Assembly: GCA_017631315.1 (NCBI GenBank)
Contig: JAGBTN010000017.1
Location: forward strand, 62,001-126,000
Direction: 5' to 3'
Length of the DNA: 64,000 nt
Source of the DNA: Bacteroidaceae bacterium
GTDB lineage: Bacteria > Bacteroidota > Bacteroidia > Bacteroidales > Bacteroidaceae
Made by a program: the position numbers and the translations under genes. Below the pieces are notes generated by a model. That model worked only from the letters and a program-made list of their open reading frames with translations. It was not told the DNA's origin and searched no databases. Every line of letters begins with the position of its first letter. Position 1 is the stretch's first letter. This document shows, piece after piece, positions 5,002 through 58,810 of the stretch.

Positions 5002-5081
5002 GGTTAACCATTTTGCCAATAATGGTTAACCTTTCCGGCAATAATGGTTAACCTTTCCGGCAATAATGGTTAACCTTTTTT
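5002..5081 (+). repeat. 22-bp phased array A (GGTTAACC x4)
   Basis: Perfect GGTTAACC cores begin at 5002, 5024, 5046 and 5068, exactly 22 bp apart. The 14-base spacers are attttgccaataat, tttccggcaataat and tttccggcaataat. The last core runs into six T residues, so two adjacent cores could form an 8-bp stem with a 14-base loop and a T tract, terminator-like in shape. It lies 47 bp after the MG2 gene stop. Confidence 0.95.
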
Positions 5082-5175
5082 ATTGAGAGACTCTACCTTG
5101 TTGATTAACTACTGCTTCAGAGCGTTTTTCTTTCCTTTTTCAATCGCAAAGTTTCATGGTTCGAAGAAATAATCG

Positions 5176-5183
5176 TACCTTTG
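5176..5183 (+). promoter_or_regulatory. -7 promoter box for the CotH-domain protein
   Basis: TACCTTTG matches TAnnTTTG, 20 bp before the ATG at 5204. Confidence 0.75.
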
Positions 5184-5203
5184 CAGGCAAAATAATATGA
5201 ACC

Positions 5204-7399
5204 ATGATGTGTAAAAGGTTATTATTGTGTCTGTTTGCAAGCCTAATGCTTTTCGGGGTGACCTATGCGGAGACTCCGGAGTTCAGCGTGCCCCATGGCA
5301 TCTATAATGCAACCTTCCGCCTTTCCATAACCTCGCCGATTCCCGGTGCAACCGTCTATTTTACAGACGATGGCAGCGACCCTCGCGAGAAAGGAATACT
5401 CTACGACGGACCGTTCAGCATTAGTCGCACCTCAGTCATCCGTTCGGCATATCTCCACTCCGACACCGTCTGGAGCGACGTCAAGACAGCAACCTACATC
5501 TTCCCCAAAAGCCTGCTCACACAAGGAAACAAGCCCTATGGATACCCCACCTACTGGGGAAAGTACTGCGAAATATCGGGCACAGCCATCGCCGACTACG
5601 AGATGGACCCCGAAATAACCGGCCACGAAACATATTCCACCTATGTCACCGAAGGCATCACCACCTTGCCCATCGTCTCACTCGTTACCGACAAAGGCAA
5701 CTTCTTCAATAATGTGGCCGACGAAAAGACTGGCGGCATCTACATTTTCACCGGTTGCCCCGTAGGCGACGGCACAGGAAGAGGGTGGGAGAGACCCGTC
5801 AGTTTCGAACTCATAGGCGGCGAAGAGAACCACGACCTCACAGTAGATTGTTGCATCAAACTACACGGCGGACACGGACGCCTGCCGGAAAAAAACCCGA
5901 AACACGCTTTCCGCCTCCACTTCAAGAGCGAGTACGGACCAAAGAAACTCAAATATCCCGTCTTTGGAGACCGTGGCCCCCAAAAGTTTAACGCACTCGT
6001 ACTTCGCACATTCTTTGGCTATTCATGGCAACATTGGGACAGCAATCAGCGCAACAAGGCACAGTATACGCGCGACCTTTGGGCACGTGCCACACAAGCA
6101 AAGATGGGCGACCCCATCAGCAAGGCACAATATGTCCATCTCTATCTCAACGGAATGTACTGGGGAATGTATAACCTCTGCGAACGCGTCAACGACGATT
6201 TCTGCGCACAAAACTTTGGCGGCTCGGAAGAAGACTGGGACGTGACGGAAGTAGACGGCGGCGCCGGACAGTATCATGCTGCAATACCCACATACGGCAC
6301 CATCGACGCATGGAACGCCATGGCAGACCTCATCTACGACCTCCCCAACCATTCTAGTTATATGCACCTCATCGGGTGCGGCTCCGACGGCAAGCCAAAC
6401 GTAAAGTACCCCCCTCTGCTCGACGTCGATAACTTCATCCACTACATGCTCATCAACCTCTACGGAGGCAATACCGACTGGGACCATCACAACTGGTACG
6501 CATACAGAAACCGCATCTGGGCAGACCGAGGCTTCCGATTCATTTGCTGGGACACCGAAAACATCCTCGTCTCACCCTCGGAAAACCTTACGAACAAAAA
6601 CAACCGCGGCTGCCCAACAGGCTTCCTCAACCGTCTGATGAAACAAGGCATCTTCGCCCATCGTTTCCACGAAGAAGCACAACGTACACTCACACACGGA
6701 GGCCCATTGTCGCCCGAAGCAGCAGAAGCCACATGGGACAGCCTAAGCAATGTCATACGACTGGCATTGTGGGACGAAGCCGCACGCTGGGGCGATTACC
6801 GTCGCGACATTCATCCCTACACCACAAAAGGCGCCCTCTACAAACCCGACGGAGCCTACGAAGCAGAACGCCTGCGCCTTCAAAAACAATACTTCCCCGT
6901 CCGTACAGACAACTTCATAAAGCAACTCCGCGAACGTGGCTGGTTCCCCTACACAGAAGCACCTGCCATCTATGTCGACGACGTCGAAATAGGTTACGGA
7001 ATCCATCCGTTCTCTACACAAAGTACCCTCACCTTGACAGGCACAGACATCTATTATACACTCGATGGCACAGCACCGGTCAACTGGTTCAAGAACGATG
7101 ACGGAGCAATTTCATCATCGGCAAGACAATACACAGAAGGCGAAAACATACTCTCAAGGTTCAGCGGATCAGTCATCCCCGACACCATAACATTGCGAGC
7201 CATCTGCAGAGAAAATGGAGAATGGAGTCCCATCGTAAACGTAAAACTTGCAACCTACGACCCCGACTTCGTTTCCTTGCCAAAAGAGAACAAGCCCAAA
7301 ATGGAAGGGTTGTTTGACCTCCATGGCCGGCGCATCACTGCTCGCGACCTGCACCGAGGCATCTTTATTGTCAACGGAAAGAAGGTTCTCAAGAAATGA
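5204..7399 (+). CDS. Secreted CotH-kinase-family protein with sugar-binding-like modules
   Basis: A 731-residue protein with a signal peptide (about residues 1-22, ending T-Y-A-E). Domains as read: a CHB_HEX_C-like module at about 28-95 (G-A-T-V-Y-F-T-D-D-G-S-D-P), a CotH kinase region at about 145-560 (I-K-L-H-G-G-H-G, K-H-A-F-R-L, then F-I-C-W-D-T-E-N), a second CHB_HEX_C-like module at about 590-690 (Y-Y-T-L-D-G-T-A-P), and a C-terminal tag at about 703-731 (LFDLHGRRI ... GIFIVNGKKV). CotH proteins are atypical protein kinases in spore coats; the role of secreted Bacteroidetes versions is unknown. The start is at 5204, with a second in-frame ATG at 5207. Its stop overlaps the next gene by 4 bp, so translation is probably coupled. 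Synonymous codons here favour C and A more than in many neighbours. Confidence 0.8.
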   Translation: MMCKRLLLCLFASLMLFGVTYAETPEFSVPHGIYNATFRLSITSPIPGATVYFTDDGSDPREKGILYDGPFSISRTSVIRSAYLHSDTVWSDVKTATYIFPKSLLTQGNKPYGYPTYWGKYCEISGTAIADYEMDPEITGHETYSTYVTEGITTLPIVSLVTDKGNFFNNVADEKTGGIYIFTGCPVGDGTGRGWERPVSFELIGGEENHDLTVDCCIKLHGGHGRLPEKNPKHAFRLHFKSEYGPKKLKYPVFGDRGPQKFNALVLRTFFGYSWQHWDSNQRNKAQYTRDLWARATQAKMGDPISKAQYVHLYLNGMYWGMYNLCERVNDDFCAQNFGGSEEDWDVTEVDGGAGQYHAAIPTYGTIDAWNAMADLIYDLPNHSSYMHLIGCGSDGKPNVKYPPLLDVDNFIHYMLINLYGGNTDWDHHNWYAYRNRIWADRGFRFICWDTENILVSPSENLTNKNNRGCPTGFLNRLMKQGIFAHRFHEEAQRTLTHGGPLSPEAAEATWDSLSNVIRLALWDEAARWGDYRRDIHPYTTKGALYKPDGAYEAERLRLQKQYFPVRTDNFIKQLRERGWFPYTEAPAIYVDDVEIGYGIHPFSTQSTLTLTGTDIYYTLDGTAPVNWFKNDDGAISSSARQYTEGENILSRFSGSVIPDTITLRAICRENGEWSPIVNVKLATYDPDFVSLPKENKPKMEGLFDLHGRRITARDLHRGIFIVNGKKVLKK

Positions 7400-8220
7400 A
7401 CTGCATAGAAATTACATCACTCGAAGACCAAGGTCTGGAAGTTTACGGCACGCTTACCGAAGCACAACTGCGCAATAAACTCGAGCCGGAAAAGGGAATC
7501 TTCATAGCCGAAAGCCCCAAAGTCATCAACGTCGCACTCGATGCAGGCTTCGAACCACTCTCTTTGCTTTGCGAACGCAAACATATCGATGGCGATGCCC
7601 GCAGCATTATCGAACGGTGTCCTGCAGAAATGCCTGTCTATACCGGTAGTCGAGAACTCTTAACGCAATTGACGGGCTATACATTGACGCGTGGAGTACT
7701 CTGTGCTATGCGTCGTCCAAAGCCTCTTTCGCCAGAGGAAATTTGCAAGGATGCACGTCGAATTGTTGTCCTTCATGGTGTTGTCGACACAACCAATGTC
7801 GGTGCAATCTTCCGCTCGGCAGCAGCACTCGGAGTAGATGCGGTGTTGATGACGCGTGACTCATGTGATCCGTTGAATCGTAGGGCAGTGCGCGTGTCAA
7901 TGGGCAGCGTGTTTCTTGTGCCCTGGACGTGGCTCGATGCAGAAGACGGGATAGCAGCCGGCACCATTCACAAACTGCAGCGAATAGGTTTCACTACTGC
8001 AGCAATGGCATTAAGAAAGGACGATATCAGTATTGATTCCCCACGTCTCAAGGCAACGGAACGCTTGGCACTTATCATGGGAACAGAGGGCGATGGGCTG
8101 CCCGATGCGGTTATCGATGCCGCAGACCTTGTTGTGAAAATCCCAATGCATCATGGAGTTGACAGCCTTAATGTAGGAAATGCAGCAGCCATTGCTTTCT
8201 GGGAATTGAGAAAGCATTAG
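7396..8220 (+). CDS. TrmH/SpoU-family RNA 2'-O-methyltransferase
   Basis: A 274-residue SPOUT-class enzyme. An N-terminal substrate-binding-like region (about 20-110) is followed by the knotted methyltransferase domain with the three family motifs: TTNVGAIFRSAAALGVDAV (motif 1, about 130-150), IMGTEGDGLP (motif 2, about 228-237), and IPMHHGVDSLNVGNAAAIA (motif 3, about 248-266). These bind S-adenosylmethionine and methylate the ribose of an rRNA or tRNA nucleotide; the target cannot be read. The ATG overlaps the CotH gene stop by 4 bp. A second, distinct TrmH paralogue sits at 56124. Confidence 0.9.
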   Translation: MNCIEITSLEDQGLEVYGTLTEAQLRNKLEPEKGIFIAESPKVINVALDAGFEPLSLLCERKHIDGDARSIIERCPAEMPVYTGSRELLTQLTGYTLTRGVLCAMRRPKPLSPEEICKDARRIVVLHGVVDTTNVGAIFRSAAALGVDAVLMTRDSCDPLNRRAVRVSMGSVFLVPWTWLDAEDGIAAGTIHKLQRIGFTTAAMALRKDDISIDSPRLKATERLALIMGTEGDGLPDAVIDAADLVVKIPMHHGVDSLNVGNAAAIAFWELRKH

Positions 8221-8227
8221 CAGACGA

Positions 8228-10018
8228 CTACATGTCGTACTTCAGGTTCTCCCATTCGGTTTCCTGATCGAGTTGTGCCATAAAGTCGTTCAGCACACTT
8301 TCATCAATGTCGCCAAGTTCAAACTCCTTCAAGGCATCCTTACGAATCTCGGCAATCCAGGCACGACGGGCTTGGACATAGTCTTCATGAACCTTGGCTG
8401 CGGTTTCTTCTGTTATTTCGTTGATGCCATAATATTCGCAGATGAGGCGATAACTCCATGCCCATCGGTACTCTGAATAATTATCGTTTGCCCGAATGAA
8501 CTCTTCTCGGATGGCAGGAATGCTGTTGATGGTGCCATCTTTTATTGCTGCAACAATGCGTTTTTCTTCGCTTAAAGGGATTAACAGACCACTCAAATCG
8601 CTCCATTTACCTGTGCCGACAGACGAGGCGGGGCGTTCCAGACGATGTCGTTTCATGACGGCTCCCATGTAGATGCGAAGGGCTATGTCGTAGTATTTGA
8701 TGCCTTTTTTGAGTGAAGAGTTCTTAATTACATAGTCATGAAAGTTGTATGTAGCGACGTCGCCCGATACTTCTCGCAGTGCTTCGAGTGTTCGTTTGGC
8801 AACGACAATACCACCAACTGAGAATGGAGAGAGCCAGTCGAAATTGATAATGGAACTCTTTCCGTTGTTTTGACGTTTGTCTCGTTTTGGCCATTTGCGT
8901 ATGTCGCGGTACAGTCCGACTGTGGTCAGGTTGCGTCCAGGCACAAGATACATGTCGTCGCCGTAGGCAATGAGGTATGAGAAGGGTAGCTTTCGGGTGT
9001 CGGGATGGTGCATGAGTTTGCCGAAGCAGACGCTGAAGGTGCCTATTTGGGCTGGCATCAGGATGTAGCTTCCGCTGGCTGTCTTTGTGCCTCGCTCCAG
9101 TACTCCCCAGTGCAAGGGGCCCATTTTGTATGCATGATTAGAGAAGTTTGTGCCGGAACCTGCATTGTAGAAGGAGTACATGCCGCCGATGAGTAGTGAG
9201 CTTTTATGATGTGATGCGGAGAAGGGGCCGCAGAAGGCTGCGCATGCTTCTCCGTTACTCATGTAGCAATTGGCAAAGAAGAGGCTGTTTTCGGCGGTAA
9301 ATCCGTCGGTTATCTCGCAGGCTTCGCCTACGAAGCAGTTTTTAAGTTTGGCGGAATTGGTAATGGTGGAGCCGTTGTAGATGACGGAGTTTTGGCAAAT
9401 AACACCGATGCCGATTGTGACGCAGGCTTCTGGAATGCTTTTGAGGGTGCAGTCGCGTAGACGTAATGCGCCGTCGATGATGGAGCCATCGTTGATGTGA
9501 CAGTTTGTGATGTCGTGGGTTGCGGTGATGCGTACATCGTTGCCGATGGTGGTGATGGGGAGGCTGTGGTCGGCGATGCTTTTCTTGACGAGCTGGTGTA
9601 CGGTGTCTGTGAAGTCTTTGTCCTGCTCGTATTTTATCATTAGGGAGGCAAGTTGTGAGTGGAGACCGTCGAATATCATGACGTTTCCGTTGCCCACTTC
9701 GTTGAGCACAGGTATGATGCGTCCTTCGCCGAAGCAGGCGTCTGGTGTTGTGTTGATGCAGCCTACGTCTTCGATGAGGCAATCGTTGCCGATGATGCAG
9801 TTGCGCAGGGTGGCGCGACGTATGCCGCTGTGTTTGTAGAAGCCTTCGTTTATTTCTATTGTTTTGCAGAAGGTGCCGAGTGTTACCTCTCCGTAGAAAT
9901 TTGTTTGGTGTATGTGTTCTGTGCGGAAATCGTTGGCCACGGTGATGTCGAGCCAGTTTTCTGCCGTGCATCCTTGCTTTTTGAGTGCGTCGATTTCGTT
10001 TTCGTTCAGTTTCCTCAT
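8228..10018 (-). CDS. DUF4954-like left-handed beta-helix protein
   Basis: The proposed start at 10018 gives 596 residues beginning M-R-K-L-N-E-N-E-I; a longer frame reaching 10114 crosses the promoter box and is rejected. Residues about 40-330 contain imperfect hexapeptide-type repeats (for example G-N-D-C-L-I-E-D-V-G, N-S-V-I-Y-N-G-S-T-I-T-N-S-A-K-L), typical of left-handed beta-helix acyltransferase or nucleotidyltransferase folds. The C-terminal about 200 residues are helical and charged. The N-terminus resembles Bacteroidetes DUF4954 proteins as I remember them. No catalytic residue could be assigned, and the function is unknown. It is transcribed alone, convergent with the methylase and divergent from queD. 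Confidence 0.75.
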   Translation of the reverse strand: MRKLNENEIDALKKQGCTAENWLDITVANDFRTEHIHQTNFYGEVTLGTFCKTIEINEGFYKHSGIRRATLRNCIIGNDCLIEDVGCINTTPDACFGEGRIIPVLNEVGNGNVMIFDGLHSQLASLMIKYEQDKDFTDTVHQLVKKSIADHSLPITTIGNDVRITATHDITNCHINDGSIIDGALRLRDCTLKSIPEACVTIGIGVICQNSVIYNGSTITNSAKLKNCFVGEACEITDGFTAENSLFFANCYMSNGEACAAFCGPFSASHHKSSLLIGGMYSFYNAGSGTNFSNHAYKMGPLHWGVLERGTKTASGSYILMPAQIGTFSVCFGKLMHHPDTRKLPFSYLIAYGDDMYLVPGRNLTTVGLYRDIRKWPKRDKRQNNGKSSIINFDWLSPFSVGGIVVAKRTLEALREVSGDVATYNFHDYVIKNSSLKKGIKYYDIALRIYMGAVMKRHRLERPASSVGTGKWSDLSGLLIPLSEEKRIVAAIKDGTINSIPAIREEFIRANDNYSEYRWAWSYRLICEYYGINEITEETAAKVHEDYVQARRAWIAEIRKDALKEFELGDIDESVLNDFMAQLDQETEWENLKYDM

Positions 10019-10052
10019 AACGTGATCTTTTTCCTTGTGTGTGTTCGTAATG

Positions 10053-10060
10053 CAAATATA
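10053..10060 (-). promoter_or_regulatory. -7 promoter box for the DUF4954-like gene
   Basis: The minus strand reads TATATTTG, 35 bp before the ATG at 10018. It decides against the longer start at 10114. Confidence 0.7.
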
Positions 10061-10103
10061 CGAAAAAACAACTAACTCTAATGGTGTATTGTGAATAAAT
10101 TCG

Positions 10104-10111
10104 TATCTTTG
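10104..10111 (+). promoter_or_regulatory. -7 promoter box for queD-queE
   Basis: TATCTTTG matches TAnnTTTG, 17 bp before the ATG at 10129. The leader is too short to hold a preQ1 riboswitch, and none was seen. Confidence 0.75.
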
Positions 10112-10128
10112 CAAAAAGTTTTCAGATT

Positions 10129-11021: not shown

Positions 11022-11065
11022 CTTGCTCCGCATTATACAAATGACATCGGAATGTGCCTTTTTAG

Positions 11066-11120
11066 TTTCTTTTTGCTACTTCGGTTTTTGTTCTAAAGTA
11101 GAGTGAAATAGAAAAAGAAA
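11066..11120. other. Imperfect inverted repeat after queE
   Basis: tttctttttgctactt (11066-11081) is imperfectly complementary to aagtag ... gaaaaagaaa (11096-11120), with an unpaired stretch on the right arm. It starts 45 bp after queE and may act as a terminator. The rest of the gap from 11022 to 11467 holds array H and the hairpin at 11258; no gene is seen. Confidence 0.4.
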
Positions 11121-11160: not shown

Positions 11161-11234
11161 GGCATGGGATGTTGACGGACTCGACAGGCTTAGTTTGCCG
11201 ACATGCCACGTTAAGTTTGCCGAAACCCTTAACC
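11161..11234 (+). repeat. 22-bp phased array H (divergent cores)
   Basis: Four 8-bp cores begin at 11161 (GGCATGGG), 11183 (GACAGGCT), 11205 (GCCACGTT) and 11227 (CCTTAACC), spaced exactly 22 bp. The spacers are atgttgacggactc, tagtttgccgacat and aagtttgccgaaac, matching the spacer pattern of the other arrays although the cores have drifted. The core at 11205 is nearly the reverse complement of the core at 24741 in array D. Confidence 0.8.
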
Positions 11235-11257
11235 TGATTTTCCTTCAAGGTATACGA

Positions 11258-15447: not shown

Positions 15448-15550
15448 CCTTAACCTTGTGCGGCAGAATGGTTAAGCATTATTGCAAGAAAGGTTAACCT
15501 TTTTGGCCAAATAGGTTAAGCATTTTCGGCCAAAGGGTTAACCTTTTTTT
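15448..15550 (-). repeat. 22-bp phased array B (five units)
   Basis: Cores begin at 15448, 15470, 15492, 15514 and 15536, exactly 22 bp apart. Read on the minus strand, the direction of the cobW-type gene ending at 15586, they are GGTTAACC, GCTTAACC, GGTTAACC, GCTTAACC, GGTTAAGG. Minus-strand spacers (for example tttcttgcaataat) match those of arrays A and C on the plus strand, which sets the orientation. A run of seven T on the plus strand borders the 15536 core. The remaining gap from 15314 to 15447 shows no gene. Confidence 0.93.
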
Positions 15551-20172: not shown

Positions 20173-20246
20173 GGTTAACCTATTTCCCAATAATGCTTAA
20201 CCATTCCGGTCATAATGGTTAACCTAATTGACCATAAAGGTTAACC
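20173..20246 (+). repeat. 22-bp phased array C (four units)
   Basis: Cores begin at 20173 (GGTTAACC), 20195 (GCTTAACC), 20217 (GGTTAACC) and 20239 (GGTTAACC), exactly 22 bp apart, with spacers tatttcccaataat, attccggtcataat and taattgaccataaa. It begins 1 bp after the stop at 20171 and precedes the strong terminator at 20257, so it should be in the mRNA 3' end. Confidence 0.95.
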
Positions 20247-20256
20247 TTTCCTGCAA

Positions 20257-20303
20257 GCACCCCTCGGCTGTCGAAAGACATCGGCCGAGGGGTGCTTCTT
20301 TTT
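20257..20303 (+). terminator. Strong intrinsic terminator after array C
   Basis: A perfect 12-bp GC-rich stem (20257-20268 with 20284-20295) with an inner 4-bp stem-loop (tgtc-gaaa-gaca), followed by ttcttttt. Confidence 0.9.
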
Positions 20304-20374
20304 GGCAGGGTTGCGTCGAAGGGAAAGGTGAGGCAAAGGAGCAGCCGAGGGCGCATCTGGTTTGGGAAAGAGAG

Positions 20375-24690: not shown

Positions 24691-24696
24691 CAACAT

Positions 24697-24792
24697 CTAC
24701 TGTCGAGTTTGCCAAATAGGTGTACCTAATTGCCCGACTTAACGTGCCTTGTTGGCAATAATGGTTAACCTTTTTTGCCGACTTGGCAGTAG
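24697..24792 (+). repeat. 22-bp phased array D with complementary outer units
   Basis: Five cores begin at 24697 (CTACTGTC), 24719 (GGTGTACC), 24741 (AACGTGCC), 24763 (GGTTAACC) and 24785 (GGCAGTAG), exactly 22 bp apart. Spacers are gagtttgccaaata, taattgcccgactt, ttgttggcaataat and ttttttgccgactt. The first and last cores are complementary over all eight positions if one U-G wobble is allowed, on the plus strand only. It lies just past the ugd terminator. Confidence 0.92.
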
Positions 24793-24814
24793 ATGTTTTC
24801 TTGTGAGCAGTATC

Positions 24815-28234: not shown

Positions 28235-28279
28235 TCTTTTCGTGTTATGTTGTCTGATGTCGCGGTAGTGTTTCGTTGA

Positions 28280-28331
28280 ATGGTCATGATGCAACAATTG
28301 AATGGTCATGATGCAACGATTGAATGGTCAT
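28280..28331. repeat. 22-bp phased array I (ATGGTCAT x3)
   Basis: ATGGTCAT begins at 28280, 28302 and 28324, exactly 22 bp apart, with spacers gatgcaacaattga and gatgcaacgattga. The core differs from the GGTTAACC group but the period and 8+14 layout are the same. It lies 10 bp past the 3' end of the channel/CotH gene and upstream of pepP; no -7 box was found in this gap. Confidence 0.9.
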
Positions 28332-28341
28332 GACCATCCAA

Positions 28342-31300
28342 TCATCTCACCACTTTGCGTCCGTTCATTATGTATATGCCTTGCATTGGCTTCCCATAGA
28401 TGCGACGGCCACTCAAGTCGTAGATTCCTGTCTTTTCCTGTTGTTTGTTTATTAGGATATTGCCGATTCCGTCGGGGTCTTCATTGATATATGCGCCCTC
28501 GTAGTACCAGACGGGTAGATGACTGCTGTCGGGCACGGGGTGGTAGTCCTCGTTGAGTGTCTGGAACCAGGCTTGATTTCCGTCCTTCCTGCCGGCGTTG
28601 AGTAGGTAGCATAACTCGCCGCTTCTTGCACTTTGCTGGTCGGCACTCTTGGCATCGTAGGGAATTTCTGCTCCCCAATCGCTTATATAATATGTGTCTT
28701 GCAGTATGGCTCGGCTGTTGTTGCGACAGATGACGTCGCCACCATCCGAACTGATGTTCATGTTGCCCATCATCAGACAGTTCGAGATGAAGCCCGTTGC
28801 CGTTGCCCATCCCACAAGGCCGCCACAGCTGTTGACTTCGTTACCTTCAATCGAACCGGCAAAGAGGCAGTCCTGCAACTGGCTGATGTTGGAAGCTTCA
28901 CTGATGAGACCAGCCAGACCGCCATGTGTGCCGTCGCCGGAAATCGTGGCGATGATGTCGATGTAACTCTGGCAACGGAGCAATGTGCCGCCAAACATTT
29001 CGCTGACAAGACCGGCATACTTGCCACTTGTTCTAATCGTTCCACGCACAATGAGGTCCTTCACCGTGCCGGACAAATGCCCGAAAAGACCGGCATAGTC
29101 GGCTTCGCGAACCAAGCCAATGGTAATGGTGTGCCCGGCTCCGTCGAATATTCCGCCGTAAGTCTTGCTGTTGCCTATCATTGTGGCAGGATAACCTCTG
29201 AAATCAATATCGTTGCTCAGCACACCACAGATGTTCGTCTGGCCTTGTTCCACCAGTTGTGCGAATCCGTTCAGTGCTTCGGCCGAAGCAATAATGTAGT
29301 ATCCGCGTTCGTCTTTCGGCAGGCTGTTCATGTTCACATAACCGCAGACCTGACATGTCCCGTGCTGGAATGTATGTTCGTCCTGCTTGTTGAGCGAGGC
29401 ATTGTTGGTATAGCCGTCGATTGAGGAGTATGGCGTTCCGTCGCAATGTAAACGTGAGAAACAATACACAACATTGTGCGTAGTGTCTGGCACGGGCGTA
29501 GTGTCCGAGCCAAGCGTTTGTCTCCATGCGGTGGTTCCGGGTTGCTTGTTCTCGAGCAGGAAACAAGCCTCGCCATAGATTACCTGGTTTTCTGTTAGAG
29601 AAGAGACATGCCCACAATCGTTTGCAGCCCCCCAATTCCCATAGAAGAAATTGTTGTGCGAGGTGACATTGCCGCTGTTGCGCGACAAGATGTCGCTGCC
29701 TTGTGTGCTGACAGTGAAGTGGCCTATGATGAGACAGTTGGTGATGTTTGTGCTTCCACTTGCCCAACCTGATACGCCAGCACAACATTCGGTCTGTCTT
29801 CCCTGTATCGAACCACTGATAAGGCAGTCTCGGACTACCGTGCCGGCATAGGAGATACCCACAATGCCGCCGTGTGTTCCATCGCCCCCAATAGAACTGA
29901 TAATGTTCACTCGGCTTTGGCAACGCTCAATGGTCGCATTCTCAGTCTGTCCGGCAATGCCGCCTGCATACTTCGCAGAGGTCGTGATGTTGCCGGTTAT
30001 GGTTAGGTCGTGTATGTAACCAGACAGGTTGCAGAACAAAGCAGCAAAGTCTGCCGTACGTCTCATGTCAAGTTTGATAGTGTGACCGGCACCATCGAAC
30101 TCACCTTTATAGTTTGCCCCCGTACCTATCATGACATCCGGATAGGCCGTGAAGTCAATGTCGTTTTTCAGTACGGCACACAAGGAAATGCTCCCTGTGT
30201 TGACCTGCTGTGCGAAGTCTGCCAAGTCTTCAGCCGTAGCAATCTCAACGATTCTCTCGTCTTCCCCCGCACCACTGTTGTTGATGAGGCGGTCGAGAAA
30301 TTCAATTCGGTTCTCAATGAATTCCTTTAACCAACCCACCTCAACTTCATATGAGCCGCCGGCTCGAGGATTAACCTGTACAAGTTGGTCCAATATGGGC
30401 CAGCGTATGAAATTAAGGCGCTGTGATTGCATGAGTTCTTGTGCTGTCGAATCGATGTACGCCACGAGGCTTTCTGCCGTAATGCCTTGCTTCTCTCGGG
30501 CAGTGTTCCACATCGTTGTCATCGAATCGCAAAGCACTTGGTCGGTGAACAGCCTTTTGACTAAAGCCCTGAAGTTGCCTGCTCCGCCATAAGTGAGCGA
30601 GAGAAAATTGCCTATATTGCAGGTGGGGAAGTAGCGATGGTCGTTGTCAAAAGCAATATCAAAGTCCCATACAGGCCCTACACGAAACAGGTCTTCATTC
30701 CGCTCCTTAGTCATATAACAACTCCAGAACGCATCCGGATTGCTGGCAAGTTCTTCTGTTAAAAAGTATTTGAGGAAACTCTTTTCGTCAAGTCTTGAAC
30801 GGAAACCCAATTCGGGGTCGGCAAAGTTGGAAGACAGGATTTTGGCTTCCATGAGATTGAACTCGCGGCGTATGTATTGAGCCTGTTCCGTTGTTATGTC
30901 ATCCTCGTTGGGGAACTTGATGGTTATAGGGTTTCCTGCGGCACTGCTAAACCACGAAATCTCCTGGTCGGCATAGCCGTCAAGTTCGAGTAGATAGCCT
31001 CCCGTCAATGCTTCGCCTTCGATGTCGGCTGGTTCCATCTCGGTGATGCTGATACGATTCTTGTCTAAAGTCAACTGGTCGGTCAGTTGATAGCATCCCC
31101 GATATTCGCCGTTGACGATAACATCTACAGGCTTGCTCCAAGGCACATAGTCGAATCCCATGCGACGTGCAATTTCATAAGCTACAAGATTTCGCATCAA
31201 AGTCTTGTCGCTATAGTTGTTGATGAGCGTCCATTTCTTTGCCTTTGCAGTAGAACGCATATCAGACCCTTTAAATAAGCGCGACGAGGTATCCAACTTT

Positions 31301-35546: not shown

Positions 35547-35627
35547 GGTTAACCATTATTGTCAAATAGGTTAACCATTATCGTCGGAAAGGTTAAGCAT
35601 TATGGCAAGAATGGTTAACCTTTTTTT
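35547..35627 (-). repeat. 22-bp phased array F (four units)
   Basis: Cores begin at 35547, 35569, 35591 and 35613, exactly 22 bp apart. In the minus-strand sense (that of the GH43 gene ending at 35658) they are GGTTAACC, GCTTAACC, GGTTAACC, GGTTAACC, the same order as array C on the plus strand. Minus-strand spacers are attcttgccataat, tttccgacgataat and tatttgacaataat. Seven T follow the 35613 core on the plus strand. Confidence 0.95.
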
Positions 35628-40298: not shown

Positions 40299-40372
40299 GG
40301 TTAACCTATTTGCCTGAATAGGTTAACCTTTCTGTTTATAATGGTTAACCTAATTCGCAATAATGGTTAACC
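40299..40372 (+). repeat. 22-bp phased array G (GGTTAACC x4)
   Basis: Perfect cores begin at 40299, 40321, 40343 and 40365, with spacers tatttgcctgaata, tttctgtttataat and taattcgcaataat. A degenerate extra unit may precede them in phase at 40277 (GGCAGAGC, spacer atgccgaaaataaa). It starts within 30 bp of the SusE/F-like stop; no gene in the rest of the gap to 40477. Confidence 0.95.
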
Positions 40373-49743: not shown

Positions 49744-50143
49744 GGGGCTGACTGGATTTGACAGCAGGATGAGGTGTTGTGTAAGCACGCAGAGAGTTGG
49801 TGACCGTTCTCTATAATCTCTGATTACCAAAAATTTAATTGGCGAAAATACTTACGCTCTCGCTGCCTAACTGAAGCACAGTAGGTTACTGGCCTAATCT
49901 CAGCACCAGGTGCTGAGACGAGACATCGCTCAGAAGCTGTTGTTCCGAAGCGTCTGGAAAAGCGGTGCAGGAAAATCGGGAATTGTCATGGAAGACGTCT
50001 CTATTTCATGACGAAAATTTAGAGAATAAGGTATTGGTTGGTGGTCCAGGTCTTGCCAATATTCGAAAACGAAGGCTGGAATAAGCGTGTAGAAAGCACA
50101 GGACGTCCCTGTTTGGACGAGGGTTCAATCCCCTCCAGCTCCA
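49744..50143 (+). ncRNA. ssrA: tmRNA
   Basis: About 400 nt. The 5' end GGGGCTG (49744-49750) pairs with CAGCTCC (50136-50142) to form the tRNA-like acceptor stem; the 3' part contains the T-loop ggttcaatccc. The CCA end is not encoded: after the discriminator A the DNA reads cta. The tag reading frame at 49841-49870 gives G-E-N-T-Y-A-L-A-A and a TAA stop, of the Bacteroidetes type. It rescues stalled ribosomes and tags proteins for proteolysis. It is the only plus-strand gene between the two exopolysaccharide operons. No clear terminator beyond 50143; a GC-rich hairpin-like stretch lies at 50153-50187. Confidence 0.96.
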
Positions 50144-50223
50144 CTATCGTTTCGCCCTCCGAGGATTTCACCCTCGCGAGGGGCTTCTGTTGTTTTGGTG
50201 ACAATGTCAGCGCAGTAGTGCTT

Positions 50224-52702: not shown

Positions 52703-54231
52703 CTTTCTTTATTGTGTGTGAGGCGTTGCCTAATGTATAATAGTAGAGTATTCCTTTCTTCTTTGTAGAGCCCTATGTAATACACAGATGCTGCCATGAA
52801 GAGGCAGGCTATCAAGAAATTCGCTATGTGCCACAGGCTTTGTTCTGCGTTGAAGGATTCTGAAAGCAGAACATATGTCACGCCACATACAAACACGCCA
52901 AGAGGTCGTAGATAAGATTTCTGTACGAAACTGTTGATGTCGAGTTTTATATATCGGTGCAACAGATATATTTGTATGCAACGGCTTACTGCGTCGGCTA
53001 TAAAGTATGACAGGATGACGGTATATGGTGGGAAGCCTGCTTTGTAGAGGCCAATGCTGATGAGGAGTGCAAGGACATACAGAACTGCGAATTGTATGGA
53101 AAACCATTTAAGGTTTCCTGTTCCACGTATGAGTTGGGTGATTCCGCCAGATGTTGCAGACACCAAGGCTACCAGCAATGTGCATTTACAGAATGTGACG
53201 GTGCTCTCCGGCATACTATTGCCTAACCACAGATGAAGGATGAAGGGCAGTTCGCAATAGATGGGGAACAATAATAGCAATGTAAGCAGCGTACAAACCC
53301 TGCACGTGGAGGATGCCAGCAGGATGGTTCTGTCCATGTTGCCTCGGCTGATGTTTTGAGTGATTTGCGGTGCGGATGCTATGTCGAAGTTGCCGACAAA
53401 GGTCGTTATATAACCTTGCACGGCATAGGAGATGGCATATGCGGCATTGATGACTGTGCCGAAGAAATAATTGATGACTATGTTACTGCCTTGGTTCCTG
53501 AATAACAATGCTGCAGCACTTAACAGACTATAGTTGTTGAACACCAGCATGTCTTTGTATTTGTTTCTCTCTTTTATGAAATTGAACTTTGTGGTTCTCG
53601 GCCATTTCTTGCAGGCGGAAAGGTAATAGGCGACCGATGTCAGTGCAGTGACAAATGCCATGCTCAGGGCGTAGAAGCGAAGGAGATTCCCTCCATAATA
53701 CGACAGTGCCAATATCAGGGCAAACTTGGCGATTGCTCCCGCAATGTCGATTATTGCTATGGTCCGGAAGTCTTCGTGTACGATGAAAAGACTGTTGAAG
53801 GGTACACTTATTAGGCTTAGGCATGTTACGATTGTGGAGACTTGAAATACGAACATGGCGTCGGCCTCCTTGCCCGGTTCTACATTCAGATAGTTGTGAA
53901 TGTAATAAACGCCTACCGATTCCAGTATCAACAAGGCTACGATTGCAAAACAGACATGGATGACAATGCTCATGTTGAAGATGCGATTGACATTGCCGTC
54001 CGACTTCCCCTGCTCGTAGTTGATGAAGCGAGTGGTGGTGTTGTAGAGCGCGCTTGTGATGAAAGAAAACATGATGACGGTCGCGCCCACAACATTGTAT
54101 AGGCCATAGTCGGATTTTCCAAGTGCTGCAAGAACAAGTCGCATTGATGCCAAGCCTAATACAGTGGTGATTATGAGCCTGGCATACACGATGAGTGTGT
54201 TCTTCGCTATTCGCTTGTCTTCTTCTCTCAT
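52699..54231 (-). CDS. wzx: Wzx/MATE-like polysaccharide flippase
   Basis: 510 residues from the ATG at 54231 (M-R-E-E-D-K-R-I-A-K-N-T); starts at 54264 (TTG) and 54255 lie on or within a few bases of the expected transcript start. About 12-14 hydrophobic segments, with the N-terminal R-x4-N-T-L-x-x-Y-x-R and the L-G-x-x-D-Y-G-L-Y-N-V-V-G typical of Wzx-type MOP flippases. It moves lipid-linked repeat units across the inner membrane. First gene of the operon wzx / ATP-grasp / DUF616 / GT2. Confidence 0.9.
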   Translation of the reverse strand: MREEDKRIAKNTLIVYARLIITTVLGLASMRLVLAALGKSDYGLYNVVGATVIMFSFITSALYNTTTRFINYEQGKSDGNVNRIFNMSIVIHVCFAIVALLILESVGVYYIHNYLNVEPGKEADAMFVFQVSTIVTCLSLISVPFNSLFIVHEDFRTIAIIDIAGAIAKFALILALSYYGGNLLRFYALSMAFVTALTSVAYYLSACKKWPRTTKFNFIKERNKYKDMLVFNNYSLLSAAALLFRNQGSNIVINYFFGTVINAAYAISYAVQGYITTFVGNFDIASAPQITQNISRGNMDRTILLASSTCRVCTLLTLLLLFPIYCELPFILHLWLGNSMPESTVTFCKCTLLVALVSATSGGITQLIRGTGNLKWFSIQFAVLYVLALLISIGLYKAGFPPYTVILSYFIADAVSRCIQIYLLHRYIKLDINSFVQKSYLRPLGVFVCGVTYVLLSESFNAEQSLWHIANFLIACLFMAASVYYIGLYKEERNTLLLYIRQRLTHNKER

Positions 54232-54269
54232 GAATTTCTCTTTTTGAATAACCATCTTATTCAAGAGTA

Positions 54270-54277
54270 CAAAGGTA
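54270..54277 (-). promoter_or_regulatory. -7 promoter box for the wzx operon
   Basis: The minus strand reads TACCTTTG, 39 bp before the ATG at 54231. Confidence 0.7.
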
Positions 54278-54468
54278 CGTGTTTTTTCTCTATTTTGGAA
54301 GAAGATGCTGGTTTTTCTTGTTGTGGCAGGTGCTTTTGCGCTTTACATTTTATCACTTAAAACGTATAATCCCTTACTTTTTGCTATTTTGTTTTTGGAC
54401 ATGAAACGGGACAAAATAGATAAGAAAACGTCCTAAAAACAGAGTTTTGCAGTCGACTTTCACGACTA

Positions 54469-54542
54469 CACTAGTGAAGTTTGCAAACTACACACGTCCA
54501 TTTTCCTAACTTCACACGTGTATTTTGGTGTTTTTACACGTT
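54469..54542. repeat. 22-bp phased array K (CACACGTG-type cores)
   Basis: Cores begin at 54469 (CACTAGTG), 54491 (CACACGTC), 54513 (CACACGTG) and 54535 (TACACGTT), exactly 22 bp apart, with spacers aagtttgcaaacta, cattttcctaactt and tattttggtgtttt. The first spacer matches the aagtttgcc type of array H. It lies between divergent genes, so unlike the others it has no gene ending beside it. The surrounding gap (54278-54866) otherwise holds no convincing gene; a 16-base near-repeat (gaaaacacctycaatc) occurs at 54554 and 54586. Confidence 0.8.
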
Positions 54543-54866
54543 TCTGTGAGCGGGAAAACACCTTCAATCAGGCACTTTTCAGCATGAAAACACCTCCAAT
54601 CTTTGCTCTTACGTTTATGTTTATATCGTAACGTTTGGATTTCCAAATGGTTGTAAAAGTTTGTAGCAATCCTGTTGCCTTGGGTCTGGGTACGAGACGA
54701 TACGTTTTGTGTCATTCTCGTGGAGTTGGAGAAAAGCAAAAAGAAAGAAGAATCGTTCTTTTTGTGACAATTTGTCAAATGGCAGTTCTTTGTTTCGGAT
54801 GAGCCTATTTGCAAGCAGACTCAATAATTAAATTGTTGCAAAGCAGAGTTATTGAATTATTTTTTG

Positions 54867-54874
54867 TAACTTTG
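54867..54874 (+). promoter_or_regulatory. -7 promoter box for the serine hydrolase gene
   Basis: TAACTTTG matches TAnnTTTG, 27 bp before the ATG at 54902. It rules out the longer frame from 54809. Confidence 0.7.
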
Positions 54875-54901
54875 TGCCATGATAATAAATATAATAGTAT
54901 T

Positions 54902-56119
54902 ATGAAGAAACTGCTTTGCCTTTTGCTGGTCGCTTTTTCTCTGACGGCGACTGCACAGAAAAAAGTTATCGAATCCAAGACTTCCTTTGCCAAGGATGTG
55001 CTGCAGCCCTATGTCGAAAGTGGTGAACTGCCCGGTGCTATCAGCATTTTCTACAATAATGGCGTGCAGGAAACGTGCTGCGTAGGCTATGCCAACGTGG
55101 AACAGAAACGCCCCATCGGCTTGGACAATGTTTATATGCAATGTTCGCAGACCAAAGGCTTCTGCGGTGTTACCATTGCCAAACTTGTGGAGGAAGGTAA
55201 GATTTCTCTCGACGATCCCGTGTCGAAGTATCTGCCAGAGTTTAAAGAACTGTGGGTGCAAGAGAGCGACAAGGACGGCGTAAAGGTGCTTCGCAAAGCC
55301 AAGAACGTTCTTACCGTTCGCATGGTCCTTAACCACACAGGCGGTTTCCCCTTCGAATGTAGTGCCAAGCGTGCCGACGTGAGAGGTGGCGGCTGGTCGG
55401 GTGGTGCTCCTCTCAGGCAGATTGCATCCATCGCTGCCGCTTCGCCCATCATGTTCGAACCGGGTACAAGAGACTTGTATTCCAATACCGGCATTGACAT
55501 CGGCGCAGCAGTTGTAGAGGTTGTTACGGGAATGAAGTGGGAGGACTACCTCAAGCAGGAGGTGCTCGAACCGCTTGGCATGAAGTCCACATGGTTCTGG
55601 CCCACCGACAAACAACTGAAGAAACAAGTGGAAATGTATGATACCCACGACAAGGCTCCTGCCACCTATCGCCTCGAGAACGGTTGGCAACAGCGTCCGT
55701 ACAACGACTCCCATGTGTTTGCATCAGCAGGTGCCGGACTCTGGACAACTGCAAACGACCAACTGAAATTCTACAAGATGCTCATGAATCTGGGCATCGG
55801 CGATAACGGTGTACGTATTCTTAAGGAAGAAACCGTGAAGTCCATCCTTGCCGTTACCACTCGTCCAGACAACATGGGCGGTTATTCGCTCGGACTGAAT
55901 GCGCCGAGAGTCGATGGTGACAACGAATGGTTCGGCCATGGCGGTGCATGGGGAACAAACTGCATGGTCAACTGGCATAAGAAACAACTCAAACTCTGGG
56001 TGGTGCAGATTAATGGTCCTCAGCCATGGAACGACAAGGTTAACAAGGCGGCCGAGAAGTTCTTCTCCCAGACAATAGATATGTCGGGCATCAATGCATA
56101 TACAGGAAGAACAAAATAA
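54902..56119 (+). CDS. Exported beta-lactamase-fold serine hydrolase
   Basis: 405 residues from the ATG at 54902 with a signal peptide ending T-A-T-A-Q. Class C beta-lactamase/PBP4*-type motifs: S82-Q-T-K85 (nucleophile and general base), Y-S-N (in D-L-Y-S-N-T-G-I-D) and a third-motif H-G-G in F-G-H-G-G-A-W-G. Such proteins include esterases, D-aminopeptidases and peptidoglycan-active enzymes; true beta-lactamase activity is not implied. The H-G-G third motif rather than K-T-G favours an esterase or peptidase. The TrmH gene begins 4 bp after the stop. Confidence 0.88.
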   Translation: MKKLLCLLLVAFSLTATAQKKVIESKTSFAKDVLQPYVESGELPGAISIFYNNGVQETCCVGYANVEQKRPIGLDNVYMQCSQTKGFCGVTIAKLVEEGKISLDDPVSKYLPEFKELWVQESDKDGVKVLRKAKNVLTVRMVLNHTGGFPFECSAKRADVRGGGWSGGAPLRQIASIAAASPIMFEPGTRDLYSNTGIDIGAAVVEVVTGMKWEDYLKQEVLEPLGMKSTWFWPTDKQLKKQVEMYDTHDKAPATYRLENGWQQRPYNDSHVFASAGAGLWTTANDQLKFYKMLMNLGIGDNGVRILKEETVKSILAVTTRPDNMGGYSLGLNAPRVDGDNEWFGHGGAWGTNCMVNWHKKQLKLWVVQINGPQPWNDKVNKAAEKFFSQTIDMSGINAYTGRTK

Positions 56120-56123
56120 GACA

Positions 56124-56903
56124 ATGCTCACAAGCACTCAAAACCCTCGCATCAAGCACCTTCTGCTGCTTCAGCAAAAGTCGTCACAGCGGAAGGCAGA
56201 CGGTCTGTTCGTTGTTGAAGGACGTCGAGAGGTGGAACATTGTTTGGCGGCAGGATATACGCTTCGTACTGCATTCGTGTGCGAAGAGATAGCCGACGTC
56301 TCTCTTTCTCTGCCGCAAGGCATAGAGATTGTACCCGTCGGCCGCAACGTCTACGAACGCATTGCATATCGTGGCGGAACGGAAGGCATCGTTGCAGTTG
56401 TGGACACAAAGAAGACAACGCTCGCTGACCTCAGACTTTCTTCTTCACCACTCATCGTCGTCCTCGAAAGCGTAGAGAAACCAGGGAACCTGGGAGCAGT
56501 GCTGCGAAGTGCAGATGCAGCAGGAGCCGATGCCGTCATTGTCTGCGATCCGCTCACCGACCTCTATAATCCCAACCTCATTCGCTCTGCCGTGGGTGCT
56601 ATTTTCACAGTGCCTTGCGTGGCTTGCAGTACCGAAGAGTGTATTGCTTTCTTCAAAGAAAAAGGCATAAAGATACTCACTGCCCAACTGCAAGACTCGC
56701 ATCTCTACTATGATACGCCAATGACGGGGCCAACGGCAATCGTGATGGGAACAGAAGCAACAGGACTGACTCCTCAGTGGCGACGTGCTGCAGATGCACA
56801 CATCCGTATTCCAATGTTAGGTCAATTAGACTCCTTAAACGTTTCTGTCAGTGCTGCTATCCTTCTATACGAAGCCGTCAGACAGCGGCAAAATGCGGAA
56901 TAA
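56124..56903 (+). CDS. TrmH-family RNA 2'-O-methyltransferase (second paralogue)
   Basis: 259 residues from the ATG at 56124 (M-L-T-S-T-Q-N-P-R-I-K); the longer frame from 56094 lies inside the upstream gene. A SpoU_sub_bind-like N-terminal domain (about 20-95) precedes the SPOUT domain with N-L-G-A-V-L-R-S-A-D-A-A-G-A-D-A-V, V-M-G-T-E-A-T-G-L and I-P-M-L-G-Q-L-D-S-L-N-V-S-V-S-A-A-I. Typical of 23S rRNA 2'-O-ribose methylases such as RlmB; target not readable. Probably co-transcribed with the serine hydrolase. Confidence 0.9.
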   Translation: MLTSTQNPRIKHLLLLQQKSSQRKADGLFVVEGRREVEHCLAAGYTLRTAFVCEEIADVSLSLPQGIEIVPVGRNVYERIAYRGGTEGIVAVVDTKKTTLADLRLSSSPLIVVLESVEKPGNLGAVLRSADAAGADAVIVCDPLTDLYNPNLIRSAVGAIFTVPCVACSTEECIAFFKEKGIKILTAQLQDSHLYYDTPMTGPTAIVMGTEATGLTPQWRRAADAHIRIPMLGQLDSLNVSVSAAILLYEAVRQRQNAE

Positions 56904-56947
56904 TGAAAAAAAACAAGTAAGTAATGTTCTTTTTAATATAAAAAGAC

Positions 56948-56955
56948 TATATTTG
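56948..56955 (+). promoter_or_regulatory. -7 promoter box for the calpain-like protease
   Basis: TATATTTG matches TAnnTTTG, 42 bp before the ATG at 56998. Confidence 0.7.
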
Positions 56956-56997
56956 CGAGAGAAATAAATCATAAATGTAGATAAATAGGTAAAAAAG

Positions 56998-58557
56998 ATG
57001 AGAACAAAGAGAATTCTGAGTGTTGCATTGTTCGTGTTGGCACTCTGTCAGGTTGCAGTCGCTCAGCAGCGTTTGGACATTATGCTCAAGAACAGGAGTG
57101 TGATGTCTTGTCCTTTGGATGATATCAATTACATGGAAATCGTTGAAGGTGCTGCGCCAGGCGAATTGGACGGTGTTTGGTATCTTGGTTGGAAGGCAAC
57201 GAACAACGGTGCCGGAACACAGACACACGTCGACGGCACAGAGATGTTGATTTTTACTGCCGGTCCGCAGATGAAGTGGGTGAAAGCCGGTGGCGAAACT
57301 GTTTATAACCTTGAATATCCCGAAGGCGGTGCCAAGGAAGGTATCACTTTCAAAGGTGTTCGCGATGGTTCTTCTATTTCAACAAGCTTCACGATTGTAG
57401 CCAAGGAAGACGATTTGCTCCTCATCAAGCAGGGCACAACTCGCTATTATTTCTACACCTCGAAGGAGGCTGCAACTTATGCTGAGTTTGTTAAATATCC
57501 CACACGTGCCACCATTTATACCGATGCCGACAAGTTGTGGGCAGCGAACATCAAGGGTGGCGACTCCAGTTCAAAGATTACTCCGATGGGCAGACATTTC
57601 GAGAGTTTCAATGCTGCTTCAGAAGAGGACAAGGCATGGCTTGCCAATCCCAGCAACCAGCCTGACCTGACTTATCATGAATTGAGTGGCAAGTCTTGGA
57701 TTGCTAAGACTGTGAATCTCTATCCCTTCGGTTCTCCTGTTCCTGCCGACGTCAACCAGCACGCAATCGGTGACTGCTGTATGTGTGCAGTGTTTGCTTC
57801 GTTTGCATATATCTATCCCGAATGGATTAAGACTATTATTGAGAAGAATGGCAACAACTACACCGTACACATGTTCGACCCCAAGGGCAATCCTGTGGAT
57901 GTGGTTGTTGACAATAAGATTATGTGCAACTCTGGTGGTGGCGTGGACCAGTTGACTGGTAAGAATGGTGTCGTAAACTGGGCAACTATCATGGAGAAGG
58001 CTCTCATGAAGTGGGAGACACGTTTCAAGTGTAACCGTATTGGTGGCATCGGAACCGAGCATGCTGCTCCTCCTTTCACCGGCAATGGTAACAGCTATAG
58101 CTTTAGCCCCGACAAACTTTACAACTCTGAGTTCGACCTCGTTGTTGACTATGCTTTGAGCCATGGCATGATTAGCGTGGGTGGTTTCAACGAGGGTGGT
58201 CTTATCTGCGGCGAACTGGAGACTGTAACCGGCCATGCCTTTACAGTGATGTATCCCGACGAGGGTGCCGACTACAAGTTTGTGATGCGCAATCCTTGGG
58301 GTAATGGTGGCAACATCGACGGTAAGCTTAAGATTCCCGCAAAGCGTGAAATCCTGAAGACTATCGACTTCCGTCTGGTATTCCCCGGTGCCCAGATGGC
58401 AGAGTACAAGAAGGAGAATCTCGGTGGTTACACTGTTCCCAAATTCATCCCGATGGATATCGACATCCATCCCTCTGAGGAAATGCTCCGCATGTATGGC
58501 TTGGAGAGCTACGAACCTCACTATGCTGTTCCCGAAGAGGCTCTCGAAGTTGAATAA
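56998..58557 (+). CDS. Secreted calpain-like (C2-type) cysteine protease
   Basis: A 519-residue protein with a signal peptide ending V-A-V-A-Q. Residues about 50-160 form a lipocalin-like beta domain (G-V-W-Y-L-G-W-K). The protease core shows the calpain triad in order: C260 in Q-H-A-I-G-D-C (calpain Q-G-x-L-G-D-C), H413 in T-G-H-A-F-T-V, and N432 in M-R-N-P-W-G-N-G (calpain R-N-P-W-G). Two further cysteines, C261 and C263, follow the nucleophile, an unusual cluster. No EF-hand or C2-like domain is visible. Bacterial calpain relatives include the Porphyromonas Tpr protease, which this may resemble. Alternative: an inactive papain-fold protein. No C-terminal secretion tag is present. A strong terminator and array E follow. 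Confidence 0.8.
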   Translation: MRTKRILSVALFVLALCQVAVAQQRLDIMLKNRSVMSCPLDDINYMEIVEGAAPGELDGVWYLGWKATNNGAGTQTHVDGTEMLIFTAGPQMKWVKAGGETVYNLEYPEGGAKEGITFKGVRDGSSISTSFTIVAKEDDLLLIKQGTTRYYFYTSKEAATYAEFVKYPTRATIYTDADKLWAANIKGGDSSSKITPMGRHFESFNAASEEDKAWLANPSNQPDLTYHELSGKSWIAKTVNLYPFGSPVPADVNQHAIGDCCMCAVFASFAYIYPEWIKTIIEKNGNNYTVHMFDPKGNPVDVVVDNKIMCNSGGGVDQLTGKNGVVNWATIMEKALMKWETRFKCNRIGGIGTEHAAPPFTGNGNSYSFSPDKLYNSEFDLVVDYALSHGMISVGGFNEGGLICGELETVTGHAFTVMYPDEGADYKFVMRNPWGNGGNIDGKLKIPAKREILKTIDFRLVFPGAQMAEYKKENLGGYTVPKFIPMDIDIHPSEEMLRMYGLESYEPHYAVPEEALEVE

Positions 58558-58623
58558 TAAAGAGATAGGTGGCTATTTGAAAAGCAGAGCATTATTCTCT
58601 GCAGGGTAGCCGATATGACCTAC

Positions 58624-58667
58624 AACGCCGTTCTGTCATCGACGACAGAACGGCGTTTCTTTTTTTT
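58624..58667 (+). terminator. Intrinsic terminator after the calpain-like gene
   Basis: A perfect 14-bp stem (58624-58637 with 58644-58657), 6-base loop, followed by tctttttttt. Confidence 0.95.
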
Positions 58668-58736
58668 GTTGTTTGCATTTATGAATTATTGCTGTACGCC
58701 ATTGTTGCAGACGCTTGATGTTTCGCCCGAAAACAT

Positions 58737-58810
58737 CTACTGCCTAATTGCCCAACAAGCCACACCTTTCCGACCGGAAAGGCACGCCTATTTGCCCGAC
58801 TTGGCAGTGG
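58737..58810 (+). repeat. 22-bp phased array E with complementary outer units
   Basis: Cores begin at 58737 (CTACTGCC), 58759 (GCCACACC), 58781 (GGCACGCC) and 58803 (GGCAGTGG), exactly 22 bp apart, with spacers taattgcccaacaa, tttccgaccggaaa and tatttgcccgactt. The outer cores pair over all eight positions with one U-G wobble on the plus strand; the centre (58765-58782) is a 7-bp stem around gacc. Flanking sequence (aaaacatctactg ... cagtggatgtttt) extends the complement and matches the ends of array D. The gap 58558-59000 holds this array and two terminators, no gene. Confidence 0.9.

Follow-up and report, generated by a model that had tools for sequence, protein, structure and literature searches.

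The window analysed here is a stretch of 64,000 nucleotides from the genome of a Bacteroidaceae bacterium (assembly GCA_017631315.1, contig JAGBTN010000017.1, positions 62,001 to 126,000 of the forward strand). At ten intergenic places it carries arrays of short cores in a 22-bp register, each core being followed by a spacer. Labels such as A-type, C-type and E-type are used below for the arrays and elements. The ten places are listed first, with gene positions taken from a home-made hexamer caller.

5002..5075, no strand: A-type array, four GGTTAACC at 22 bp, between two plus-strand genes and 47 bp past the stop of an MG2-domain gene (lag scan).
11161..11256: degenerate 22-bp array, cores GGCATGGG, GACAGGCT, GCCACGTT and CCTTAACC, convergent genes on either side, lag-22 identity 0.61.
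15448..15543: A-type array, five units CCTTAACC, GGTTAAGC, GGTTAACC, GGTTAAGC and GGTTAACC, between the stop of a CobW gene and the start of an RNase R gene.
20173..20246: A-type array, four units, 1 bp past the stop of a glutaminase A gene, convergent region.
24693..24796: E-type element with ACATCTACTGTC / GGCAGTAGATGT as its inverted ends, the distance between the end cores being exactly 88 bp, inner cores GGTGTACC, AACGTGCC and GGTTAACC in 22-bp register, convergent region.
28260..28353: 22-bp direct repeat ATGGTCATGATGCAACRATTGA between two minus-strand genes (lag scan).
35547..35620: A-type array, four units, at a distance of 37 bp from the stop codon of a minus-strand GH43 gene.
40299..40372: A-type array, four GGTTAACC, convergent genes on both sides.
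54451..54552: C-type array, cores CACTAGTG / CACACGTG with AAGTT / AACTT arms, divergent region.
58733..58814: E-type element with ACATCTACTGCC / GGCAGTGGATGT as its inverted ends, the distance between the end cores being exactly 66 bp, inner cores GCCACACC and GGCACGCC, convergent region.

All ten places show the register when printed at a period of 22 bp. A lag scan (44-bp windows, identity of at least 0.64, tandem lags of 12-40 bp) returned seven clusters at lag 22, namely the arrays at 5002, 15448, 20173, 28280, 35547, 40299 and 54469, and none at every other lag; the same scan of 100 Markov-1 random windows returned no cluster at any lag. Below the threshold lie 58737 (0.55) and 24697 (0.48), in addition to the array at 11161, whose membership is borderline. 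Despite their low identity, 24697 and 58737 are real members, because inverted ACATCTACTGYC / GGCAGTRGATGT ends enclose exact core distances of 88 and 66 bp; the inverted ends of these window elements are 12 bp long. The repeat at 28280 is the weakest member because it has little dyad symmetry (0.46 vs 0.41+-0.05 in shuffles); it probably belongs to another class than the arrays and may be a plain duplication. The statement of the earlier note that ten arrays repeat at exactly 22 bp is confirmed, and its figure of at least 17 perfect copies of the main core agrees with the 17 copies of GGTTAACC counted. Tandem Repeats Finder ranked 5002, 20173 (as period 44), 28280 and 35547 as its top four by score, and at its lowest score also reported low-scoring repeats of other periods in the window.

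The same register is found throughout the DNA examined from the genome of the window (G000), which is 86.6% complete and of which 464 kb were used (the window and a further 400 kb). In the further 400 kb, lag 22 accounted for 42 clusters and no other lag for more than 4. For G000 and the sister-species genome used as the reference comparison (G023), 49 and 42 clusters were obtained at lag 22, with every other lag at 4 or fewer; because the pieces were chosen partly for showing arrays in a pattern search, the array densities of both genomes are biased upward. The core GGTTAACC occurs 106 times in the 464 kb, and all pairs up to 120 bp apart are separated by 22, 44, 66 or 88 bp (41, 28, 20 and 2 pairs, respectively). 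A-type arrays with at least two units number 40, and 27 of them have exactly four. Only 8 sites lie outside these arrays, compared to about 7 by chance in an arithmetic estimate. Across the whole genome there are 105 pairs of the form GGTTAACC-N(3-33)-GGTTAACC, all with N14 among the matches listed. Other arrays of this genome use cores such as CACTGCAG, CACGTG, and TAACGTGTTA between AACTT and AAGTT arms. Six E-type elements are present in the examined DNA of the two sister genomes, two in the window and four (66 bp) at L107, L110, L130 and L139, all with cores 66 or 88 bp apart between inverted ACATCTACTGCC / GGCAGTAGATGT ends.

Comparison with the sister species indicates which parts of the arrays are held constant. 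In 23 aligned A-type arrays, 20 of them gap-free, the core differs at 19 of 568 positions (3.3%), against 106 of 714 (14.8%) in the spacer and 291 of 2000 (14.6%) in the 100-bp flanks. Spacer sites 2, 3, 12 and 13, the TT and AA beside the core, show 0, 1, 1 and 3 changes of 51, and the middle sites 6-8 differ in 17, 16 and 18 of 51. Gap openings amount to 4 per 1,625 aligned array bases vs 109 per 13,902 other intergenic bases. The slow change of the core relative to spacer and flank, together with the scarcity of gaps, indicates that the core, the AT arms and the period are held and that the middle is free. The constrained footprint is therefore AAnGGTTAACCnTT plus a fast-changing middle of fixed length.

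These rates also bear on the view that the arrays are neutral minisatellites, arising from slippage or from duplication templated by hairpins, in which case the copying machinery would set the 22 bp. Units are gained or lost in 22-bp steps: the two differences in unit number seen between the sister species, 66 bp (four units versus one) and 22 bp (in a C-type array), both equal whole numbers of units, and one array in a more distant relative has 17 perfect central units with near-identical spacers. However, core and period are better conserved between species than spacer and flank, and within most arrays of G000 the spacers have diverged between units with the register still kept. Such an origin is considered very improbable.

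The spacers are better described by a two-orientation model than by a symmetric one (log-likelihood -1108 vs -1215), and orientation agrees in 63 pairs within arrays and disagrees in 31. At one locus (L102:17958 vs L129:2989), a single 14-bp spacer of one species is the exact reverse complement of its counterpart in the other; since the inverted spacer recurs in a further G023 array (L129:6091), flipping and copying from a neighbour are equally likely.

Beyond the sister genomes, the GGTTAACC version is rare. In the first relatives search it was present in G000 and G023 among 41 genomes, and GGTTAACC pairs were absent from all 23 other genus mates. Pairs were at background in 398 other genomes of the family, three of which had 1-2 pairs (one of these is a genus mate whose only pair is N13, and another has just one pair, N14), and 11 of 394 other genomes of the phylum had 1-2 pairs, none N14. 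Triple cores at 22 bp were found in five named genomes among 84,980 species searched, namely two Bacteroidaceae metagenome-assembled genomes (MAGs), a Tannerella, a Prevotellaceae and a Chitinophagaceae MAG; their spacers are dissimilar. The four distant carriers G822 to G825 have 18, 6, 2 and 6 pairs, and the pieces taken from them gave 6 clusters at lag 22 in G822 (4 at lag 21), 2 in G823, none in G824 and 1, a CT run, in G825. Three consecutive 22-bp-periodic blocks with different cores, the first being GGTTAACC, share one intergenic region of G822 (L176:4986-5310).

With other cores, arrays of the same period are common in the family. A sample of 345 kb drawn from 20 of its other genera contained 11 clusters at lag 22, in 7 of the 20 pieces, compared to 5 clusters at lag 21 and 0-2 at each of the other lags shown (15-31). 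Non-coding DNA of three other genera, scanned at the same threshold, gave 6, 6 and 1 clusters at lag 22 in the genomes G045, G048 and G049, with no other lag above 1; in the 120 kb examined of G048, 22 bp was the sole non-coding period found. The core of G048, AAGTATnATACTT, forms 114 pairs, 22 or 44 bp apart for all among the matches listed, and is absent from all 14 congeners. The cores are thus species-specific while the 22-bp geometry is kept. This retention of the period with changing cores, in G000, in G048 and in other genera, implies that something measures 22 bp, as had been suggested from the window alone. Two small samples were negative: lags 12-39 were free of clusters in 50 kb of E. 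coli, and lag 22 was so in about 106 kb from 8 Bacteroidota of other families. Among viral contigs, 20 stretches match the two-core pattern; one of the 12 printed has a third core in register and the rest appear chance-like or unrelated. Replacement of a core in place, compared at two loci, was not borne out: at a D-type locus the relative G011 has no array, and at a G048 locus G076 has none, while in G149 the same gene is followed by a weakly repeated 22-bp stretch (0.64), placed by eye.

The arrays are mostly located behind genes. The 40 A-type arrays of G000 are distributed over 20 tandem, 10 convergent and 6 divergent regions and 4 gene edges, at a median distance of 40 bp past the stop codon. 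Intergenic regions of at least 60 bp were also scored for the presence of a 22-bp array. Over all sampled genomes, counting both sister genomes, arrays are present in 34 of the 119 convergent regions, in 66 of the 476 tandem ones and in 21 of the 151 divergent ones (12 of 28, 26 of 95 and 8 of 33 in G000 alone), and the frequency per region between convergent genes is about twice that elsewhere. A function as terminators was weakened by a masking control. Another terminator is present at 5 of 20 convergent gene ends with an array vs 27 of 36 without, a strong-looking deficit that fell to 13 of 58 vs 59 of 162 (p=0.05, both sister genomes counted) once an equal-sized block was masked in array-free regions. 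Directly after the array at 20173 there is a strong GC-rich hairpin with a T-run (20255-20304); therefore, the array is no stand-in for a terminator there.

A position close behind stop codons can also be read as a sign of RNA elements, in which neighbouring transcribed palindromes would form a stem of 8 bp with a 14-nt loop and, together with T-rich flanks, act as bidirectional intrinsic terminators or 3' stabilisers. The outer flanks are T-richer outward than inner (about 6 vs 4.1 of 12), among gene ends with arrays the best terminator-like hairpin (dG <=-8) uses an array core at 10 of the 20 convergent and 8 of the 20 tandem ones, and whole G048 elements are predicted to fold as long hairpins. 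However, the cores of G000 do not covary (adjacent units z=0.7, first and last z=-0.2, core 2 vs core 3 z=-1.7), and the spacer arms are less complementary than shuffles (z about -3). The end downstream of the gene has no T excess (5.75 vs 6.15 of 12, p=0.44, 20 tandem arrays), both ends being T-rich; spacer orientation is unbiased relative to genes (p=0.62, 18 arrays); T-tracts are lacking by eye in four printed G048 arrays; and an exact loop length has no reason to be kept. The folds of G048, although very stable, follow from the palindromic units, because left and right flanks of one element pair no better than flanks taken from different elements (z -0.8 to 1.3), and long RNA hairpins were rejected there. 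No compensatory changes preserving an intrinsic-terminator stem were seen in either G000 or G048. Taken together, the stacked RNA hairpins offered in the earlier note are disfavoured, and a role in RNA is regarded as doubtful. In an Rfam search of the window, transfer-messenger RNA (tmRNA) alone reached the gathering score and the arrays had no match; the tmRNA gene lies at 49744-50144 and encodes the tag GENTYALAA.

The elements of G048 have a more composite structure. A central AAGTATnATACTT block is accompanied by in-phase 22-bp palindromes, four units per side, fading further out. In 12 of the 23 sampled elements the flanks are related to those of other elements, and the in-phase flank signal is strong in these and weak in the other 11 (z 0.7-2.6). 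The related flanks comprise two distinct ends in either orientation. One end motif was found at 10 places, 8 of which coincide with listed arrays and 2 of which fall outside the part of the genome that the listing covers, and no autonomous copy was seen among these places, whose loci were not read through. The longest array seen, at L253:3298-3776 (about 1.444 Mb) between convergent genes, has 17 perfect central units with near-identical spacers and flanking palindromes.

Shared ends of this kind suggest miniature non-autonomous elements resembling BrickBuilt, whose host belongs to the order Bacteroidales. Such elements would have small inverted ends and a phased-repeat body, would be spread by a putative transposase, and would have at most a secondary function. 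The 12-bp inverted ends of the E-type elements in the window, the species-specific and sporadic cores, and one array missing from the sister genome together with its surroundings (about 130 bp in all) agree with mobility, as do partial matches to a Y1 transposase, one each in G823 and G825, that is, in two of the four distant GGTTAACC carriers. On the other side, all 18 G023 arrays within aligned blocks (41 arrays were found in the G023 DNA) are present in G000, the lone occupied/empty pair of sites has no clear target-site duplication, and the A-type flanks are unrelated across loci (3 weak pairs among 79 flanks). Nor would mobility explain the slower evolution of core and period relative to spacer and flank. 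In a search covering the Y1 family (PF01797), the family of the transposases (RAYT) associated with repetitive extragenic palindromes (REP), no match was found in G000, G023, G822, G045, G048 or G049; a Y1 copy in G000 may have been missed because of the incompleteness of that genome. Matches were obtained in 3 of 20 genomes, including four in G064 besides the partial ones. As an account of the arrays, such elements appear rather unlikely. The REP-like mobile system proposed from the window is supported in part, by the dispersal of G048 elements with shared flanks; the stable positions between sisters and the lack of Y1 in G000 and G023 speak against it, and identity with RAYT/REP was rejected. 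A GTAG or CGTC tag at the palindrome foot is not present in the A-type unit of G000. The E-type ends read GGCAGTAG (GGCAGTGG in one) and contain the REP-type GTAG tag, with no RAYT found in the genome, and some array spacers of G823 (Chitinophagaceae) start with CTAC or finish with GTAG.

Tentatively, and with slightly less than even confidence, the arrays are interpreted as rows of operators for a putative cooperative dimeric DNA-binding protein, located mostly behind genes and probably serving as a barrier or insulator. Sequence-specific dimers would sit every 22 bp, about two helical turns; at this pitch they would lie on nearly the same face and touch, hence binding cooperatively to two to five sites, most often four, and up to 17 in one relative. 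In G000 each site would consist of AAnGGTTAACCnTT with its length-fixed, sequence-free middle. Bound arrays might act as a bidirectional barrier to transcription and/or supercoil diffusion, a role suggested by the median of 40 bp past genes and the roughly twofold frequency between convergent genes. Since specificity shifts between species and the geometry is kept, the predicted protein (or the paralogue in charge) would have to alter its recognition surface. The exact pitch, the palindromic site of 14-17 bp, the free middle of fixed length, the lack of an RNA signature and the varied cores at one period argue for cooperative dimers on DNA, and of the three mechanisms considered in the earlier note, tandem protein sites on one helix face fit best.

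Several observations weigh against operators of this kind. The cognate protein was not found and the flanking genes are diverse: 20 flanking proteins checked in G000, G822, G823, G824, G825 and G048 include no shared regulator, and the DNA-binding ones among them are an MraZ and an HU-HIG protein, once each. It is position alone that suggests the barrier, and divergent regions also hold arrays (6 of 40). The terminator deficit is weak under masking, and the terminator-like hairpin after the array at 20173 looks ordinary. In 341 kb from 19 genus mates, coding DNA included, lag 22 gave 7 clusters, no excess over the 8 at lag 21, with 7 at lag 18 and 6 each at lags 14 and 15; the idea that 22 bp is commoner than neighbouring spacings therefore holds for G000, G023 and the non-coding DNA of G045 and G048, and not for this sample. 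A core change at many loci between species would also be hard to reach by ordinary coevolution of protein and site. RNase R was dismissed as an array-linked gene; it neighbours an array in the window and one in G822, on different sides, and the match is taken as coincidence.

A strictly phased site, present in many copies and under selection, thus exists in a major gut family. If a protein binds the arrays, they would represent a system of chromosome-wide architecture or transcriptional insulation for which the searches turned up no description in these bacteria. A bolder version, which is thought unlikely, is a chromatin-like system of the Bacteroidaceae, in which a dimeric protein family on 22-bp-phased palindromes at gene ends would serve as transcriptional and topological insulator, with its recognition sequence rewritten genome-wide in each species. 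If true, this would be a bacterial parallel to fast-evolving centromere or hotspot specificity. Species-specific cores within a fixed geometry make coevolution of protein and site directly testable.

Among known systems, the cooperative operators of phages and plasmids, and iterons, have palindromic or repeated sites about two turns apart that are bound cooperatively. These are few sites at one locus, whereas the arrays described here occupy tens of chromosomal loci. No name for the arrays was found in the open-licence literature.

REP sequences and bacterial interspersed mosaic elements (BIME), in the available portions of their descriptions, are likewise short, high-copy, intergenic palindromes favouring tandem and convergent gene ends (PMC3733652, PMC2817692). 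In contrast to these, the present arrays hold a strict 22-bp register with a free middle, their A-type units have no GTAG/CGTC, and no Y1 transposase accompanies them in G000, G023, G045, G048 and G049.

The nearest published description found is that of BrickBuilt, a miniature inverted-repeat transposable element (MITE) of Porphyromonas gingivalis with a 23-nt tandem unit and 19 loci in strain ATCC 33277 (PMC4596501). The portions of that source available here give a leader of up to 285 nt, a tail of up to 318 nt and up to 6% indels within elements, and mention that tandem repeats of 22 and 23 nt had previously been noted in strain W83 (PMC4596501). Both are intergenic, occur at many loci per genome and consist of tandem units that span roughly two turns of the helix and combine conserved with free positions; the BrickBuilt leader and tail with small inverted ends may correspond to the related flanks of 12 of 23 G048 elements and the inverted E-type ends (PMC4596501). 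They differ in that BrickBuilt, as described there for P. gingivalis, has a period of 23 and one unit family, whereas the arrays here have a period of 22 in several genera, mostly palindromic cores varying by species and locus, and A-type members without a shared leader or tail (PMC4596501). At lag 23, no cluster was found in G000 and G023, vs the 49 and 42 at lag 22. In the Tannerella MAG G824, in addition to its GGTTAACC array, arrays of 23-bp period with near-identical copies, palindromic by eye, lie at L189:1-230 and L190:347 and 3377, and a link of these to the 23-nt BrickBuilt repeats is possible. By analogy with BrickBuilt, as far as the portions of its description used here extend, the origin of the 22-bp arrays may also have been mobile.

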